A stretch of DNA of 23,656 bases from a virus, in the IMG/VR virus record IMGVR_UViG_3300044797_000180, positions 1 through 23,656 of that record, one strand, 5' to 3'. Made by a program: the position numbers and the translations under genes. This document shows positions 1,277 to 23,563 of the stretch, one piece after another. The notes under the pieces are model-generated. The model did no database searches. It was not told the origin of the DNA and worked only from the letters and a program-made list of their open reading frames with translations. Each line of letters begins with the position of its first letter. Position 1 is the first letter of the stretch.

Positions 1277-1291
1277 GTTGTCACGTGTCAC
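1277..1291 (+). promoter_or_regulatory. shared plus-strand motif (operator or promoter candidate), copy A
   Basis: GTTGTCACGTGTCAC lies 21 bases upstream of the HTH gene ATG. It differs at one base from the motif at 11977-11991, upstream of the only plus-strand gene inside the tail operon. It contains TGTCAC twice, separated by one G, as a direct repeat. A related weaker form precedes the integrase (1544-1558). The repeat and position are seen in the sequence; the regulatory role is inferred. Confidence 0.4.
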
Positions 1292-1543: not shown

Positions 1544-1558
1544 GGTGTAACGTCTGCG
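1544..1558 (+). promoter_or_regulatory. putative integrase promoter region with related motif, copy C
   Basis: GGTGTAACGTCTGCG partly matches the motifs at 1277 and 11977 (TGTAACGT core). TAACGT at 1548-1553 fits a TAnnnT -10 box. A start about 7-10 bases downstream would lie at or next to the integrase ATG at 1563 and give a leaderless or nearly leaderless mRNA, which is common in actinomycetes. No convincing -35 box is seen. Confidence 0.3.
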
Positions 1559-3283: not shown

Positions 3284-4159
3284 TCAGCCCCCGTAGACCC
3301 GCACGCCCAGGAAGGACTCGCCCCAGCCGACACACTTCAGCGACTTGTCGTGGGCGCTGACAGCCGTCTGCGGGATGAGCCGGACCTTGCCGTCGCCGAT
3401 GTAGCCGTTCGGGCCGAAGTCGGTCGAGTAGACATTGCCCTTGCCGTCGGCCAGCGCGACGTGACCGGCGCCGGTAGAGCCGCCGGTCCAGTAGACCGGG
3501 CAGCCCATCGGGGCGGTGTACCAGCCGTGCAGCTGGGCGTGCGGGACCAGCGCCGCCGCCTCGGCCGCAGTGCGCTTGACGCTGCCCCAGGCCGAGATGT
3601 TGACGGTGTAGGCGTTGCGCACGAAGGACGCGCACAAGCCCTTCCAGGACAGCAGCGGCTTGGCGACCTCCGCCTTGGCGTACTCGATGGCCGCAGCGGC
3701 GTGGGCGTTGGTGTTGCCCTTGCTGGCCAGCGCGTCGCGGGAGACCTTCGGCGCCGGGGCCGGAGCGGCGCCGGTCGCCTTGATCGCCTGGACCTGCTTG
3801 AGCAGCGCGGCCCACTCGGCGGTTGCGTGGTAGCTGTTGTAGGTGCTCCACGCCGTGAAGCCCTGCTCGCCGAACACGACACGGGCGGCGTGGGCGTTGG
3901 TCGCGGGCACGAACAGCTCAGCGACCAGCGGCTTGTTCCAGCCCGAGGAGCCCAGGCCGAACTCGCTCGGGGTGTGGGCGCCGGTGAAGATCTGCCAGAG
4001 ACCGACCGAGCCGTAACGGCTCAGCGTCAGGTCGCCGTTGTCGGCCGGGTTCCAGGCCGACTCGTAGTGCGAGATGACGGTCATGACGTCGGCGTCGGCG
4101 CGGGAAAAGCCGGCGCCCAGGGCGAGCTCGAGAACGTCGGCGGCGGTGAGAGTGGTCAT
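3284..4159 (-). CDS. endolysin: transglycosylase-like domain plus CHAP/NlpC-like domain
   Basis: The 291-residue enzyme should degrade host peptidoglycan at the end of infection. The N-terminal part (about 1-120) is lysozyme/soluble lytic transglycosylase-like: HYESAWNP (Glu33 as probable catalytic acid), YGSVGLWQI (49-57) and FTAWSTYNS (101-109). An Ala/Pro linker (130-139) leads to a cysteine-peptidase/amidase-like domain. There GLCASFVR places Cys176 and GAGHVALADG places His233, the order expected of CHAP or NlpC/P60 enzymes. No signal peptide is seen, so it depends on the upstream holin. Its ATG overlaps the upstream stop by 4 bases (ATGA). The two-domain reading is good; the exact bond cut by each half is inferred. 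Confidence 0.82.
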   Translation of the reverse strand: MTTLTAADVLELALGAGFSRADADVMTVISHYESAWNPADNGDLTLSRYGSVGLWQIFTGAHTPSEFGLGSSGWNKPLVAELFVPATNAHAARVVFGEQGFTAWSTYNSYHATAEWAALLKQVQAIKATGAAPAPAPKVSRDALASKGNTNAHAAAAIEYAKAEVAKPLLSWKGLCASFVRNAYTVNISAWGSVKRTAAEAAALVPHAQLHGWYTAPMGCPVYWTGGSTGAGHVALADGKGNVYSTDFGPNGYIGDGKVRLIPQTAVSAHDKSLKCVGWGESFLGVRVYGG

Positions 4160-11411: not shown

Positions 11412-11936
11412 GCGAGTTACGCGCCTCTCTCAGGTCCTCGATGAATTGCACCGCCTGCCGGAACTCGTCCACGGTCAGGTTGCCCAGCTCCCACGGCGGG
11501 ATGTGGAGCGTCTCGGCGATCACGCACCAGTAGCGCGAGCGCAGCTCCTCTAGCTCGCTGGAGCCAAAGGGGCGGCCTCGGCCAACTGCGCGTCGATAGT
11601 GGCCAGGGCCTTGGCCTTGGCGTCCTCGGGGGCGTCGGCCGCCGCGATGGAATCGCGCATCGTCTGCAGCTCCTCCGCGTCGAAGGACAGCTCCAGCTCC
11701 GAGACCATGAAGTCGGGAGTGTCCTCCCACCGGAAGGTCGGGTGGTCGGTCGAGAGGCAGTGCCAGAGCAGCACCCGGCGGGCCCGGGTCTTGCCGCCCA
11801 GCAGCGCCTTGCCGAACTCGTCGAAGGACATCTCGGCGCGCTTCTCGATCATCTCGGCGCGGGACTGCCGGACGCGCTTCGGCTTGTAGGGCCACGACTG
11901 GACGGGGCCGCCCTCAGGGCGGTAGGTGACGATCAC
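11404..11936 (-). CDS. tail assembly chaperone, frameshifted long form (G-T fusion)
   Basis: This is the -1 frameshift product of two overlapping frames. Translation starts at GTG 11936, shifts at 11565-11571 and ends at TGA 11404-11406, giving 177 residues. The added T part reads FGSSELEELRSRYW, then HIPPWELGNLTVDEFRQAV, helical and acidic as in other T domains. Family knowledge: the long form bridges the tape measure to tail tube subunits during assembly and is absent from the mature virion. The T frame has no good start of its own after the slip site, which supports the fusion. Its end overlaps the tape measure start by 8 bases. Confidence 0.85.
11550..11936 (-). CDS. tail assembly chaperone, short form (G)
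   Basis: The product has 128 residues: a basic N-terminus (KPKRVRQSRAEMIEKRAEM) and an acidic helical C-terminal half (SELELSFDAEELQTMRDSI), ending APLAPAS. Length, position before the tape measure and the overlapping -1 frame identify it as the gpG-like chaperone. The GTG at 11936 has GGAG 7 bases upstream. The upstream space on this strand is unusually long (301 bases) because a plus-strand gene is inserted between this gene and the gp10-like gene. Confidence 0.85.
   Translation of the reverse strand: MIVTYRPEGGPVQSWPYKPKRVRQSRAEMIEKRAEMSFDEFGKALLGGKTRARRVLLWHCLSTDHPTFRWEDTPDFMVSELELSFDAEELQTMRDSIAAADAPEDAKAKALATIDAQLAEAAPLAPAS
11565..11571 (-). promoter_or_regulatory. programmed -1 ribosomal frameshift site
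   Basis: The minus strand reads C CCT TTG in the zero frame, an exact X_XXY_YYZ heptamer. Both tRNAs can re-pair after slipping back (CCT to CCC, TTG to TTT). The zero-frame stop TAG follows at 11550-11552, 12 bases after the heptamer. The -1 frame stays open to 11404. The site type and place are standard for siphovirus chaperone genes. Confidence 0.85.
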
Positions 11937-11976
11937 GCGCTACTCCTAGCGTGGGTGGGTCATACGAACAGGTGAT

Positions 11977-11991
11977 GTTGTAACGTGTCAC
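11977..11991 (+). promoter_or_regulatory. shared plus-strand motif, copy B, upstream of the inserted gene
   Basis: GTTGTAACGTGTCAC matches the motif at 1277-1291 at 14 of 15 positions. TAACGT at 11981-11986 could be a -10 box; a mRNA starting near 11993 would have a leader of about 44 bases with a GGGAG ribosome site. No clear -35 box is seen. It suggests that the inserted gene has its own promoter, perhaps co-regulated with the HTH/integrase module. Confidence 0.4.
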
Positions 11992-12036
11992 TCGGCGCTA
12001 GCGTTGAGGCCAACAGACCGAGACACGGGAGATGCG

Positions 12037-12246
12037 ATGAAGACCCAGGCAACCAACCAGGCGATCCAGACCGCGCTCGCCCAGGGCAGCAGCCCGCGGG
12101 TGGCCTGGCTCACCGGGATGTTCCCGCCCAAGCGGCACCACGGGACCGTGGTCTGGGCGAACGCGAACCGGGTATGTGTGCGCGACGAGGAGACCGGCAA
12201 GGTCTCCAAGCTGAACGCCAACCGCGTCCTGGCCGTCTCAGCCTGA
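12037..12246 (+). CDS. plus-strand 69-residue protein inserted in the tail operon (moron candidate)
   Basis: The protein starts MKTQATNQAIQTALAQG, an amphipathic helix. It then has FPPKRHHGTVVWANANRVCV and DEETGKVSKLNANRVLAV, an alternating beta pattern that could form a small SH3-like barrel. It is basic, with no membrane segment or signal peptide. The ATG at 12037 has GGGAG 6 bases upstream; an in-frame GTG/ATG further upstream is not needed. It is the only gene between 3 and 23 kb on the plus strand. It is convergent with the gp10-like gene (9-base overlap) and divergent from the chaperone gene. I do not recognise a family. Its own upstream motif and opposite strand suggest expression in the lysogen. 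Confidence 0.6.
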   Translation: MKTQATNQAIQTALAQGSSPRVAWLTGMFPPKRHHGTVVWANANRVCVRDEETGKVSKLNANRVLAVSA

Positions 12247-12735
12247 CCCGCAGATCCGCTCCGCCATCGCCTCCGCCGCAGCCAGGATCGCCTCGCGGGC
12301 GTCCGGCACCGACTCGGCCATAGCAGTGTCGAACCAGCCCGGCTTGCCGATCTGGAAGATGCCGTTCTTCCCGTTGCGGCTCGTCTTGGCGCCGAACAGC
12401 GCGTGAGACCAGCCGCGATGGTTGAACGCCGCCGGGGCACTGTTGAACCCACGCGGGTACTTGCCCTTCGCCGCCGTGACGCCCACGCCGGTGTACGTGC
12501 CAGAGGCGCGCACGGCGGGCTTCAGCGCGGCCGCGATGGCCCGACGCATGCCCATGTCCGCGCCCTTGACGGGCATCGCCTGGATGCTGGACTGGGCCTG
12601 CACGACAGCCGGTTGCACTGCGGCCTTGAGGTTCTTGTTCAGCTCGGTCCGCAGTGCCTTACCGTCGTCCTCCAGCTTCAGCCGGGCCATGAGCGCCTTC
12701 AGCGCCTGCTGCTCAATGGTCAGCTTGACGGCCAC
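12238..12735 (-). CDS. HK97-gp10-like tail completion / neck protein
   Basis: The 165-residue protein is basic and mostly helical at both ends (LTIEQQALKALMARLKLEDD; AREAILAAAEAMAERI). The central part has RGWSHALFG and KPGWFDTAMAES, a Trp-containing pattern seen in HK97 gp10-type and related minor tail/neck proteins that complete the head-tail joint. In most siphophages this gene precedes the major tail gene; here it follows the two tube proteins, so the call is moderate. The GTG at 12735 lies 9 bases after the upstream stop without an obvious ribosome site. Its 3' end overlaps the convergent plus-strand gene. Confidence 0.6.
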   Translation of the reverse strand: MAVKLTIEQQALKALMARLKLEDDGKALRTELNKNLKAAVQPAVVQAQSSIQAMPVKGADMGMRRAIAAALKPAVRASGTYTGVGVTAAKGKYPRGFNSAPAAFNHRGWSHALFGAKTSRNGKNGIFQIGKPGWFDTAMAESVPDAREAILAAAEAMAERICGSG

Positions 12736-12744
12736 GGCAGCGGG

Positions 12745-13155
12745 TCAGGAAGTGGCGCGGGTGATCGCGGCCGTGGTCTTCCAGGTCACCGACACGCTGT
12801 CGACGTCGCCGACCTTGCCCGCCAGCGGGTTGTACTGGGAGACCAGCACGTTACCGGTGTACGACGGGTTGGTGGTCGAGCGGGAGCCCTGGGTCGCGGC
12901 GACCTCGAAGCTGGTCACGGTGCCGAACAGCGGCCAGAGCAGCTGGTCCACGGCGGAGGCCGAGTAGTCGTTGTAGAAGTTCAGCTTCAGCGTGCCCTGC
13001 TTCAGGCCGCCCAACATCTCGTGCCAGCCAGCGGACTGGTAGTTGGTGACGTCCTTCTCCTCGGTGGTGAAGGACAGCTCGGCGCTCGAGCACCACTGGG
13101 TCATGTCCACCGCGTTGATCAGGACCTTCTCGGCGGTGAGTACGAACTTGGCCAT
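12745..13155 (-). CDS. second tail tube protein (short paralog)
   Basis: The 136-residue protein is homologous by eye to the N-terminal half of the upstream major tail protein. Both begin with a (M)xKFVLT motif. The line KDVTNYQSAGWHEMLGGLKQ here matches IDVTNYNSGGWNEYIAGLGQ there, and the following TLKLNFYNDY resembles KLTVNGFWEA. The C-terminal part carries NPSYTGNVLVSQYNPLAG. Tube proteins of this fold stack as hexamers to make the tail lumen. The ATG at 13155 has a strong AAGGAG site and lies 9 bases after the neighbour's stop. It could be a second tube subunit, a tube-tip adaptor or a decoration protein. Confidence 0.72.
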   Translation of the reverse strand: MAKFVLTAEKVLINAVDMTQWCSSAELSFTTEEKDVTNYQSAGWHEMLGGLKQGTLKLNFYNDYSASAVDQLLWPLFGTVTSFEVAATQGSRSTTNPSYTGNVLVSQYNPLAGKVGDVDSVSVTWKTTAAITRATS

Positions 13156-16691: not shown

Positions 16692-17513
16692 TCAGCGCAG
16701 GTCGTCGTCAGTGACGAGGAAGGAGCGACGCACCGGGGCGACGACAGCCGCCGGGGTCTCGTACTTCGCGCGCAGCTGCTCGAGCAGCCGCCGCTCCGCC
16801 CGCTCGTCCATCGGCTGCTGAGCCGACCGGTTCGACGCGCTGGCGAAAGTGTTGGGGTTGGCGCCGTAGCCGCAGATCGACACGTCGCCGCGCTGCAGGT
16901 TGGCGGAATGGATCACGTACTGGCTGAAGTCCGGGGACCACTCGCCGCTGTCGATGACGAAGCGGAATGACATCTCGGACACAAGGCCGGAGTTGAGCTT
17001 CGGCAGGATGTAGGCGACGTCCGGGTCGGCGGGGTCCAAGAGAGCCCGACAAGCCAGACCCAGCTGCGTCTCCACGAGGTCCAGGTGTCCCAGCTGCCCA
17101 GCAGGGATAGTTGTCCGCGCAATCCGGCGTAGGTCGTCGTGCTGGAGGACAAGAGGAACGTCCAGACCAGCGCCCAGGCTGAGAGATTGCTTGAAGGCGC
17201 CGGGCGCCACGAGCTCGTCGTACGGGCCCGCCTGGTCGTACATCTCGTAGGGCGAATTTGTGCTGGAGGCAAGGCCGGTGAAGTACGTGTCCCCGACCGA
17301 GAAGCCGCCACCGTCGTCTCCGCTCCAGTAGCCGCCCGACGGCGTCATGCCGTCGTAGACGCCGGCGCGACACTGCGCCGTGAAGGTCACTGCGGCCGCG
17401 GCCCGACTGCCCGGCAGGTCGGAGTTGCGGCGCTGCGAGGGGCGGTCCTTGCGGGCCCGGTACAGCGAGGCGCGGCGCTCGGCGGCCTCGCCGATCATGT
17501 CGGCGCGGTTCAC
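16692..17513 (-). CDS. HK97-family prohead protease
   Basis: The 273-residue product should cleave the capsid delta domain during maturation. YDELVAPGAFKQSL (98-111) is the family's substrate-strand block. VPLVLQHDD (119-127) places the catalytic His125. LVSEMSFRFVI (177-187) carries the catalytic serine (Ser179 or Ser182). The C-terminal part has QRGDVSICGYGANPNTFASA (about 209-228), also conserved. There is a Gly/Asp-rich insert (SGDDGGGFSVGD) before the active region. The GTG at 17513 overlaps the upstream stop by 4 bases (GTGA), with GGAAGGGAC upstream. An in-frame ATG five codons later is a less likely start. Confidence 0.85.
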   Translation of the reverse strand: MNRADMIGEAAERRASLYRARKDRPSQRRNSDLPGSRAAAAVTFTAQCRAGVYDGMTPSGGYWSGDDGGGFSVGDTYFTGLASSTNSPYEMYDQAGPYDELVAPGAFKQSLSLGAGLDVPLVLQHDDLRRIARTTIPAGQLGHLDLVETQLGLACRALLDPADPDVAYILPKLNSGLVSEMSFRFVIDSGEWSPDFSQYVIHSANLQRGDVSICGYGANPNTFASASNRSAQQPMDERAERRLLEQLRAKYETPAAVVAPVRRSFLVTDDDLR

Positions 17514-17968
17514 TGGGTCGGTCCCTTCCGCAGCTCGTCCCAATCGACGGCGGCGAGCTTGACGGGCAACATTGCTTCGGGGTCGTCGGCATACGTCGCC
17601 AACGTGCGGTGCAGGCCGTCGGCCAGGACGCCGTCCAGCGCGGGCTGGGAACTTCCGCGGATGAAGAGGACCGGCGACAACGGCTGACCGGCCTCGATGG
17701 CCTTGGTCTGCCGCTTCACGCCCGGCACGTCGGCGTCCAAGAACGGCGAGCCCGACGCGCGCAAGATGTCCTTGGCCGCGGCCTGGACGATCGGCGCCGC
17801 CTTCAGCGCCGCGATGCAGGCGTCGACCGTGGCCGCCGGGAAAGCCAGCGCCAGGAACGAAGCGGCGTGGTCGTAGTCGGCCGGGTCGACCGTCTTGGAC
17901 CACACCGGCGCGGGCGTGTCCTGCTTGCGCGCGACCGGCGCGGACCGGTGGATGAAGATGTCCGGCAC
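17510..17968 (-). CDS. ParB-like DGxHR-motif protein
   Basis: The 152-residue product has PVLFIRGSSQPALDGVLADG, then LHRTLATYADDPEAMLP (about 103-139). The ADGLHRTLA stretch is the D-G-x-H-R core of the ParB/Srx-like nucleotide-binding fold, found in several phage head-region proteins. A helical Ala-rich N-terminal half precedes it. The GTG at 17968 shares one base with the portal stop (TAGTG), and its end overlaps the protease start by 4 bases. The biochemical role is not known; nuclease, NTP-binding or structural use are all possible. Identity rests on the motif and on the portal-protease location. Confidence 0.6.
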   Translation of the reverse strand: MPDIFIHRSAPVARKQDTPAPVWSKTVDPADYDHAASFLALAFPAATVDACIAALKAAPIVQAAAKDILRASGSPFLDADVPGVKRQTKAIEAGQPLSPVLFIRGSSQPALDGVLADGLHRTLATYADDPEAMLPVKLAAVDWDELRKGPTQ

Positions 17969-19557
17969 TAGTCCTCCACGAAATGGATGTGCACGGCGTC
18001 GGCCGATCGGCCCGCGGAGAAGAACTGCGTACCCGGCGGGGTGTAGACCGGCTGCGCGTCCTCCTGGGCAGCGCCGCAGCACGGGCACGAGCCCGCGTCG
18101 TAGAGGCAGCCCATGCCGACCGGGTTGCACTCGCAGCCCGCCGGGCAGGAGCACGGCTGGGCCGCGCTGTCGACCTGCGAGACGACGCCGTTGGGCAGAA
18201 CCGTCTCGACGTTGCCGCGCGCGACCAGCGACCGGACGGCCTGGTGGCACTCCTGGCAGTGGGCCTGGTCGGCCATGAGGGTGGCGCCGCCCGAGCCGTC
18301 GACCGAGTCGATCGGCATGTAGGCGCGGGCCTGCTTGCCCTTGGCCGCCAGCCCCTTCTGGTCCGGGTTCAGCATGGCGTTCGGGGTCGGCGGGGCCGCG
18401 CTGGCCTTCAGGTCCGCCAGCTCTTTCTGCTGCGCGGAAGTGAGCGGCGGCAGGTTCTCCAGCTCGCGGAACTCCGTCGGCGTGCGCATCTGCAGCGCCG
18501 CCTGGAGCTGGTAGAGCTGATGGCGGGACAGCGCGTCCATGCGGAGCAGCGCGTCCGTGTTGAACTTGATGTACCGCGGGTTAGCCAGCAGGTTGTTCGA
18601 GATGTACTCCTCGCGCCGGGCGATAGCCGGGCTGAGGTTGTAAATCAGGAACTGCAGGTTTCGCTGGTTGATGTTGGCGTAGGTCATCTTCGCCGCGCCG
18701 CCGCCGCCGGACGTGGCCACGTCGACCAGGTCGTGGGGGACGTCGAAGAATCGGCAGATCTCCTCAGCCGCGAACTGCTTGCCCGCCAGCCAGTTGAGGC
18801 CGGTCATGTCGGCCTTCATGGAGGAGAATTCCCAGTCGGCGCCCATGACCAGCGCGTCGCCGTTGGACAGCGTCGCCCGGTACTGGTCCTTGAATTCCTT
18901 GGCCTGAACGGGGTTCAGCGTCCGGGCCGTGTTCTTCATGACGACCGAAGGCAGCGTGCCGTTGTCGAGGAACTCGACGATGAACGAGTCCAGCGAGGCG
19001 TACGTGCCCAGCGCCCACGAGGCGTAGGCGACCGGCGAGAGGCCAATCTCCAGGCCAGGGACCAGGTTGGCGCGCTCGTGCCAGACGTCGGTGGGGTCGT
19101 AGACGACGCCCTTATAGCGGTAGCCCTGCACGCCGCCGCCAGCCATGCAGACGGCCACGTCGGTGGCCGGGATCAGCTCGATGCAGGCGGGCATGCCCAG
19201 GCCGTCACGGGCCGTGATGAGACCGAAGGTGTTACCGGCCCGGTCCAGGTCCATCTGGCTGGCGTAGAGCCACTCCATGAGGGACATACGCGGGCCGCCC
19301 GGGAACCGCAGGACCTGCGGCTTGGGGCACTCCACCTGGTAGCTGACGCCCGTCGCCGGGTCGGTCACGCGGCGGTAGACGTCCACCGGGAACGTGGAGA
19401 TGAGACTGGCGCGCAGACGCAAGCAGGCCCACACAACCGAGGTGTGGAAGGCCGTGTCCTGGGTCACCAGGCGGTTCGGGCGGGCGGTGCGCCGCGGGAT
19501 CAGGTCCTGCGGCGGCGGGAAAGTGATCTGGCGCTCCTGGCGCCCCCAGAGCGGCAT
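17968..19557 (-). CDS. portal protein (HK97 type) with a Cys-rich C-terminal extension
   Basis: The product has 529 residues. The portal core carries HTSVVWACLRLRASLISTFP (38-57), VWHERANLVPGLEIGLSP (158-175), EEICRFFDVPHDLVD (265-279), MTYANINQRNLQFLIYNLSP (291-310) and FNTDALLRMDALSR (332-345), all usual HK97-portal blocks. From about residue 425 the protein continues beyond the normal end. Ten cysteines lie between 434 and 494 (CQEC, CSCPAGCEC, C484, CPCC), a pattern suited to one or more zinc sites. It then ends GRSADAVHIHFVED. The ATG at 19557 has GGAAGG upstream. The portal forms the DNA channel at one capsid vertex and works with TerL. Confidence 0.9.
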   Translation of the reverse strand: MPLWGRQERQITFPPPQDLIPRRTARPNRLVTQDTAFHTSVVWACLRLRASLISTFPVDVYRRVTDPATGVSYQVECPKPQVLRFPGGPRMSLMEWLYASQMDLDRAGNTFGLITARDGLGMPACIELIPATDVAVCMAGGGVQGYRYKGVVYDPTDVWHERANLVPGLEIGLSPVAYASWALGTYASLDSFIVEFLDNGTLPSVVMKNTARTLNPVQAKEFKDQYRATLSNGDALVMGADWEFSSMKADMTGLNWLAGKQFAAEEICRFFDVPHDLVDVATSGGGGAAKMTYANINQRNLQFLIYNLSPAIARREEYISNNLLANPRYIKFNTDALLRMDALSRHQLYQLQAALQMRTPTEFRELENLPPLTSAQQKELADLKASAAPPTPNAMLNPDQKGLAAKGKQARAYMPIDSVDGSGGATLMADQAHCQECHQAVRSLVARGNVETVLPNGVVSQVDSAAQPCSCPAGCECNPVGMGCLYDAGSCPCCGAAQEDAQPVYTPPGTQFFSAGRSADAVHIHFVED

Positions 19558-23428: not shown

Positions 23429-23563
23429 TCAGTCCCTCAAGTCGTGGCAGGCGGCGCAGACGGTCACGCCGAGCGGTTGGGTCGGTGTGCGCACGAGCCA
23501 GCACAGCTCGCCGCGGTGGATATCAGCTGCGCACGTGTCACACGAGGCGACGGGGCGGCTCAC
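23429..23563 (-). CDS. 44-residue Cys4 zinc-ribbon microprotein
   Basis: The product is SRPVASCDTCAADIHRGELC, then LVRTPTQPLGVTVCAACHDL with a short RD end. Cys pairs CDTC (8-11) and CAAC (36-39) form a likely zinc ribbon, with C21 extra. The GTG at 23563 overlaps the upstream stop by 4 bases (GTGA), which decides between three in-frame GTG codons. The function is unknown; a small DNA- or protein-binding regulator is one possibility. Confidence 0.6.
   Translation of the reverse strand: MSRPVASCDTCAADIHRGELCWLVRTPTQPLGVTVCAACHDLRD

Follow-up and report, generated by a model that had tools for sequence, protein, structure and literature searches.

A putative antisense moron among the tail genes of a presumed actinobacterial phage, and a sequence box that it shares with the integration genes

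Coding potential of a lone plus-strand ORF

Why should one small gene face the opposite way among the tail genes of a phage, and when would it be expressed? The question is raised by a 23,656-base virus record (the window, analyzed over its whole length), which is a linear contig fragment and incomplete. Every other gene predicted between 2.9 and 23.2 kb by a simple codon-based gene finder lies on the minus strand; the exception is a 69-codon ORF with an ATG start (12037-12246, plus strand), whose translation, MKTQATNQAIQTALAQGSSPRVAWLTGMFPPKRHHGTVVWANANRVCVRDEETGKVSKLNANRVLAVSA, begins MKTQATNQ and ends NRVLAVSA. A GGGAG Shine-Dalgarno sequence (12027-12031, plus strand) is located 5 nt 5' to the ATG; the consensus ribosome binding site of Streptomyces is RRGGAG (PMC6742748). 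The GC content at codon positions 1, 2 and 3 is 0.62, 0.51 and 0.94, and the codon log-odds score is 0.45 bits per codon, compared with averages of 0.41-0.95 for the genes of the window. The best alternative frame at this locus, on the minus strand, scored 0.11 bits per codon and gave an AlphaFold model with pLDDT 67 and pTM 0.29, against 82 and 0.63 for the plus-strand ORF. With its high third-position GC, a codon score equal to that of neighboring genes and its GGGAG, the ORF looks like a coding sequence. The first-pass annotation had described a lone plus-strand gene of 69 residues with its own GGGAG amid minus-strand genes, and this description was confirmed by ORF analysis, codon scoring and gene finding.

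Comparison with related loci

The late gene upstream of the ORF (12238-12735, minus strand) encodes a 165-residue protein assigned to phrog_11991, a family of unknown function, and the late gene downstream (11550-11936, minus strand) encodes a 128-residue tail protein (phrog_17335) and has its own AGGAG ribosome site; both assignments rest on PHROGs and on the survey of gene junctions. A perfect 5-bp hairpin, CGCTA-GGAG-TAGCG (11938-11951, minus strand), displays the ribosome site of the 128-residue tail gene in its loop.

Related loci were gathered with the major tail protein (12745-13155), which found 51 viral loci and, in the form of an alignment, further viral loci plus 31 prophage loci from named genomes. 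The prophage hosts are mostly Streptomyces, and also include Planobispora, Herbidospora, Nonomuraea, Thermocatellispora and Amycolatopsis. Searches with the portal protein and with the integrase retrieved no close relatives. The gap between the 165-residue and 128-residue genes was measured only in loci where both flanking genes were recognizable, 107 loci that represent 65 distinct clusters. It was between -1 and 52 nt in all 107, as against 301 nt in the window, and no other case of an antisense gene inside the late operon or between late genes was seen among 163 related loci. Because the flanking genes are nearly contiguous in the relatives and none of the 163 loci has another antisense gene inside a late operon, the spacer and ORF (11937-12246, about 300 nt) are an inserted single-gene unit, a moron in antisense orientation. 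No flanking direct repeats marking an insertion mechanism were found around the insert. At first pass it had been proposed, as a check, to see if related phages have or lack the gene as a unit; the comparison gave a clean answer, with the unit missing from every relative surveyed. The absence extends to relatives that share the tail module, which suggests that the gene may be dispensable for virion assembly or lysis.

Insertions were also seen at a neighboring junction, that between the major tail protein gene and the 165-residue gene. A same-strand HNH endonuclease gene is located there in L015 (8430-9125), and insertions of like size are found at the same junction in L020 and L114, the latter being the same contig as L015. 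The L015 HNH product ends in GAVTRATS, a copy of the tail protein's own C-terminus; it looks as though the insertion had brought along or duplicated the 3' end of the tail gene. As the inserts at this junction show, the tail-gene stretch does accept insertions.

A gene of the window that lies between the portal and head protease genes (17510-17968, minus strand, 152 residues) has no match in the 163 related loci, Pfam or PHROGs. It probably represents another accessory insertion, this one in sense orientation, and on visual inspection the C-terminal half of its product resembles ParB. The portal protein (17968-19557, minus strand, 529 residues) is aligned by its relatives only to about residue 390, and its C-terminal extension is cysteine-rich (CQECH...CSCPAGCEC...CPCCG) and looks metal-binding. 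The product of a gene at 3284-4159 (minus strand) has a lysozyme-like (SLT_3) N-terminal domain and a C-terminal part that matches PHROG 12298, annotated as a membrane-associated moron protein.

A sequence box shared with the HTH and integrase genes

Family searches identified, on the plus strand, genes for a MerR/excisionase-like HTH protein of 62 residues (1313-1501), which is a candidate regulator, and for a serine integrase of 386 residues (1563-2723). The motif GTTGTMACGTGTCAC occurs only twice in the window, as GTTGTAACGTGTCAC in the leader of the putative moron (11977-11991, plus strand) and as GTTGTCACGTGTCAC in the leader of the HTH gene (1277-1291, plus strand), and the two copies are identical at 14 of 15 positions. 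Their cores are TGTAACGT at 11979-11986 and TGTCACGT at 1279-1286, and a third core, again TGTAACGT, is located at 1546-1553 (plus strand), 9 nt 5' to the integrase ATG. The match between 1277 and 11977 had been reported at first pass and is borne out; the core at 1546 had been missed. The core consensus TGTMACGT has exactly three sites in the window (1279, 1546 and 11979), all on the plus strand, with one in the leader of each plus-strand gene (HTH gene, integrase and moron) and none elsewhere. Its background frequency in the relatives is 2.6 per Mb-strand.

On its own, the 15-mer match is moderate evidence. The window contains 234 pairs of 15-mers with one mismatch or none; when two segments of matching lengths were drawn at random, they had such a 15-mer in common 0.75% of the time, and dinucleotide-shuffled versions of the two real spacers did so in 5 of 3000 cases. 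A blind test for any 8-mer common to three such spacers was not significant (451 of 3000 random triples, 15%). The motif evidence is stronger because TGTMACGT occurs only three times, each 5' to a plus-strand gene, and the octamer carries weight because the core belongs to a motif taken from two sites and was met afterwards at a third. This placement supports the earlier suggestion of a regulatory-looking box common to the moron and the HTH/integrase module. The distance from box to start codon differs from gene to gene (50, 26 and 9 nt), as does the distance to the candidate -10 elements, and a single regulatory logic for all three genes is not obvious.

A CACGTGTCAC-like site at 23530/23531, with 15-bp near-identity to the site at 1281, reads as coding sequence and was taken as chance. 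A Bxb1-type operator was also rejected, since both main sites have 3 mismatches to what we take to be the consensus and the sites are too few. Among Cluster A mycobacteriophages, L5 and TipsytheTRex have over twenty stoperator sites (PMC9283540). The boxes described here resemble Cluster A operators and stoperators in being short, intergenic and oriented with transcription, but there are three only, all on the plus strand and 5' to plus-strand genes, and no such repressor is found in the fragment. With three cores in an incomplete fragment as against more than twenty repeated, asymmetric sites spread over a genome, the boxes do not fit a stoperator system of this type. Neither a repressor nor a replication region was identified in the 23,656-base contig fragment.

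Promoter-like signals and antisense geometry

The -10 consensus of Streptomyces promoters is TANNNT (PMC6742748). The plus strand of the window has 14 such hexamers in all, with three in the 100-nt moron spacer (11947, 11981 and 11999) and two in the 131-nt HTH spacer; the minus strand has none in these two divergent spacers. The moron and HTH spacers are 59% and 72% GC, somewhat A+T-richer than the rest or comparable to it, and the clustering of hexamers is supportive of promoters, not proof. TAGCGT at 11999-12004 (plus strand) is a candidate -10 element. Neither a convincing -35 partner (TGAC) at good spacing nor a sigma-70 consensus was found, and the leader RNA showed no excess stability (z = 0.78).

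The moron and the 165-residue late gene are convergent, and their 3' ends overlap by 9 nt. From this geometry it follows that a moron transcript would be antisense to the neighboring late mRNA, and the overlap may have a regulatory effect. No intrinsic terminator was detected within 11500-13000 by a scan that requires a run of T and might overlook a terminator poor in U.

The predicted protein

No credible homolog of the 69-residue protein was found by blastn or tblastn against phage records, by tblastn against plasmids, by pattern-based scans of IMG/VR viral contigs with two peptide sets, or in a set of over 1,100 genomes of actinobacteria, made up of 12 named prophage carriers, 343 members of the Planobispora family, 395 of the Streptomyces family and 396 drawn from the phylum at large. 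Candidates in two genomes, G051 and G735, had per-genome E values of around 1e-3, with hundreds of genomes searched, and were attributed to chance; another, in G015 (L066), overlaps a better ORF in a different frame and was judged spurious. The protein matched no family in Pfam, PHROGs, NCBIfam or PADLOC, the anti-phage defense models of the last included, and no relative was present among PDB sequences. A Pfam match to KPP10_Orf10 (E 0.03) was below the curated cut-off and was discarded. The first-pass statement that the product has no recognized family was thus upheld in every collection searched.

The AlphaFold2 model, made without an alignment, is compact and of fair confidence, with a helix and five strands. 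Foldseek and VIA-align matched it with weak significance to SH3-like barrels (Tudor, KOW, Hfq and the C-terminal domain of retroviral integrase), with a best Foldseek E of 0.003; the VIA Z scores, of up to 7.6, are within the range of common arrangements. A helix with a five-stranded SH3/Tudor/KOW-like barrel is a plausible structure for the protein; the fold is too common for a function to be read from it.

Proposed explanation and alternatives

The account that we favor, to which as a whole we give a probability of about 0.55, is that of an antisense moron expressed in lysogeny, linked by the box to the HTH and integrase genes and silenced by late transcription. On this account a tailed, temperate phage of actinobacteria has acquired a single-gene moron, set antisense where two tail genes meet, with a ribosome site and a putative plus-strand promoter of its own. 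Because it carries the same control sequence as the integration genes, the moron is probably switched on while the virus is dormant; the TGTMACGT box common to the HTH gene and the integrase would place its expression with the lysogeny module, at a time when the late operon is silent. Upon induction, late transcription of the opposite strand would cross the moron and would be expected to shut it down, with the outcome that moron and late operon are expressed in a mutually exclusive fashion, as in a noncontiguous operon. The small SH3-like barrel would most likely bind nucleic acid or protein of the host or the phage, and its likeliest benefit would be the exclusion of other phages or a change in the host. 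The sequence comparisons establish the coding ORF, its insertion, its antisense orientation and the shared octamer; promoter activity, timing, regulator, interference and the role of the protein are inferred. A fuller version, in which a phage regulator binds TGTMACGT and so co-controls the HTH gene, the integrase and the moron, and in which the barrel protects the lysogen until late transcription silences its gene on induction, when the prophage makes virions of its own, strikes us as quite unlikely.

Among other explanations, an inserted gene that is real but constitutively expressed from an ordinary host-type promoter deserves serious thought, unlikely though we consider it. The octamer would then be simply a part of -10 elements with no phage regulator involved, as would fit TAACGT at 11981 (moron) and 1548 (integrase), both of which match TANNNT, and the lack of operator-like arrays; the HTH copy (TGTCACGT), however, does not fit TANNNT, and identity at 14 of 15 positions exceeds what a -10 element needs. 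We have rather low expectations of a moron expressed early in lytic infection, together with the integration functions, as an anti-defense or host-takeover factor. Integrase genes are typically expressed when infection is being established, and many uncharacterized small phage proteins have this barrel shape (a match of weak significance here), but a site within the late operon exposes the moron to antisense late transcription, and the contig fragment shows no link to early genes.

It is improbable that the insert serves chiefly to tune the tail genes, as an antisense RNA or a promoter, with the protein incidental. The convergent genes, their overlapping 3' ends and the undetected terminator would suit such a role, and a moron of phage P22 is believed to influence read-through into a late gene (PMC2629481); against this, the third-position GC, the good ribosome site and the confident fold speak for a translated protein. 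Least credible of all is that both the ORF and the spacer motif arose by chance. A 15-mer match like this one, taken singly, would turn up by chance in about 0.2-0.75% of cases, and three such spacers often have some 8-mer in common, but against this reading stand the coding statistics and the ribosome site, an insertion that is discrete when set beside 65 distinct relatives, and the positions of the three octamers.

Relation to known systems

By the comparative definition, a moron appears inserted in an operon across related phages and is usually independently expressed (PMC2629481). The widened gap in the window supports the earlier claim of a moron, in the sense of an independently inserted plus-strand gene; as to a promoter of its own, plus-strand TANNNT hexamers and the shared box are present and a full sigma-70 consensus is absent. 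Classical morons have their own transcription terminator, which the comparative definition does not require. The nearest parallel is the "ant moron" of P22-like phages (PMC2629481), which likewise is inserted in the late operon, is absent from close relatives and has apparently its own expression signals; here, in contrast, the insert holds one gene only, of 69 codons, which belongs to no known family, reads antisense and has no detected terminator.

In the Staphylococcus phage 80alpha, ith/tha form a noncontiguous operon, an antisense layout that helps to switch genes between the lysogenic and lytic states (PMC11087260). The layout is found in the window as well, with a small gene antisense to the genes of one operon, which flank it on both sides, and in both cases two expression states could exclude each other. 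In 80alpha, however, it is the lysogeny operon that contains the antisense gene, which encodes the lytic-phase inhibitor, whereas the gene described here is embedded in the late tail operon and would make its product in lysogeny; no homology is claimed. Prophage-expressed defense genes are known in actinobacteriophages, as in Sbash (gp30/31; PMC6426596), the Gordonia phage CarolAnn (PMC6426606) and Butters (PMC7542560). The timing proposed for the moron is the same as that of these accessory genes, which are on in the prophage, but the 69-residue protein has no family or defense-model match.

The architecture described here, a moron in an antisense layout, is of a known kind; the product is an orphan with a testable regulatory prediction. 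The location, orientation and shared box of this accessory gene predict expression in the lysogen and silence whenever the tail operon is active. If borne out, this would carry the noncontiguous operon, with its antisense design, into the late genes of a phage of actinobacteria, and would provide a new prophage-expressed protein as a candidate for phage exclusion.
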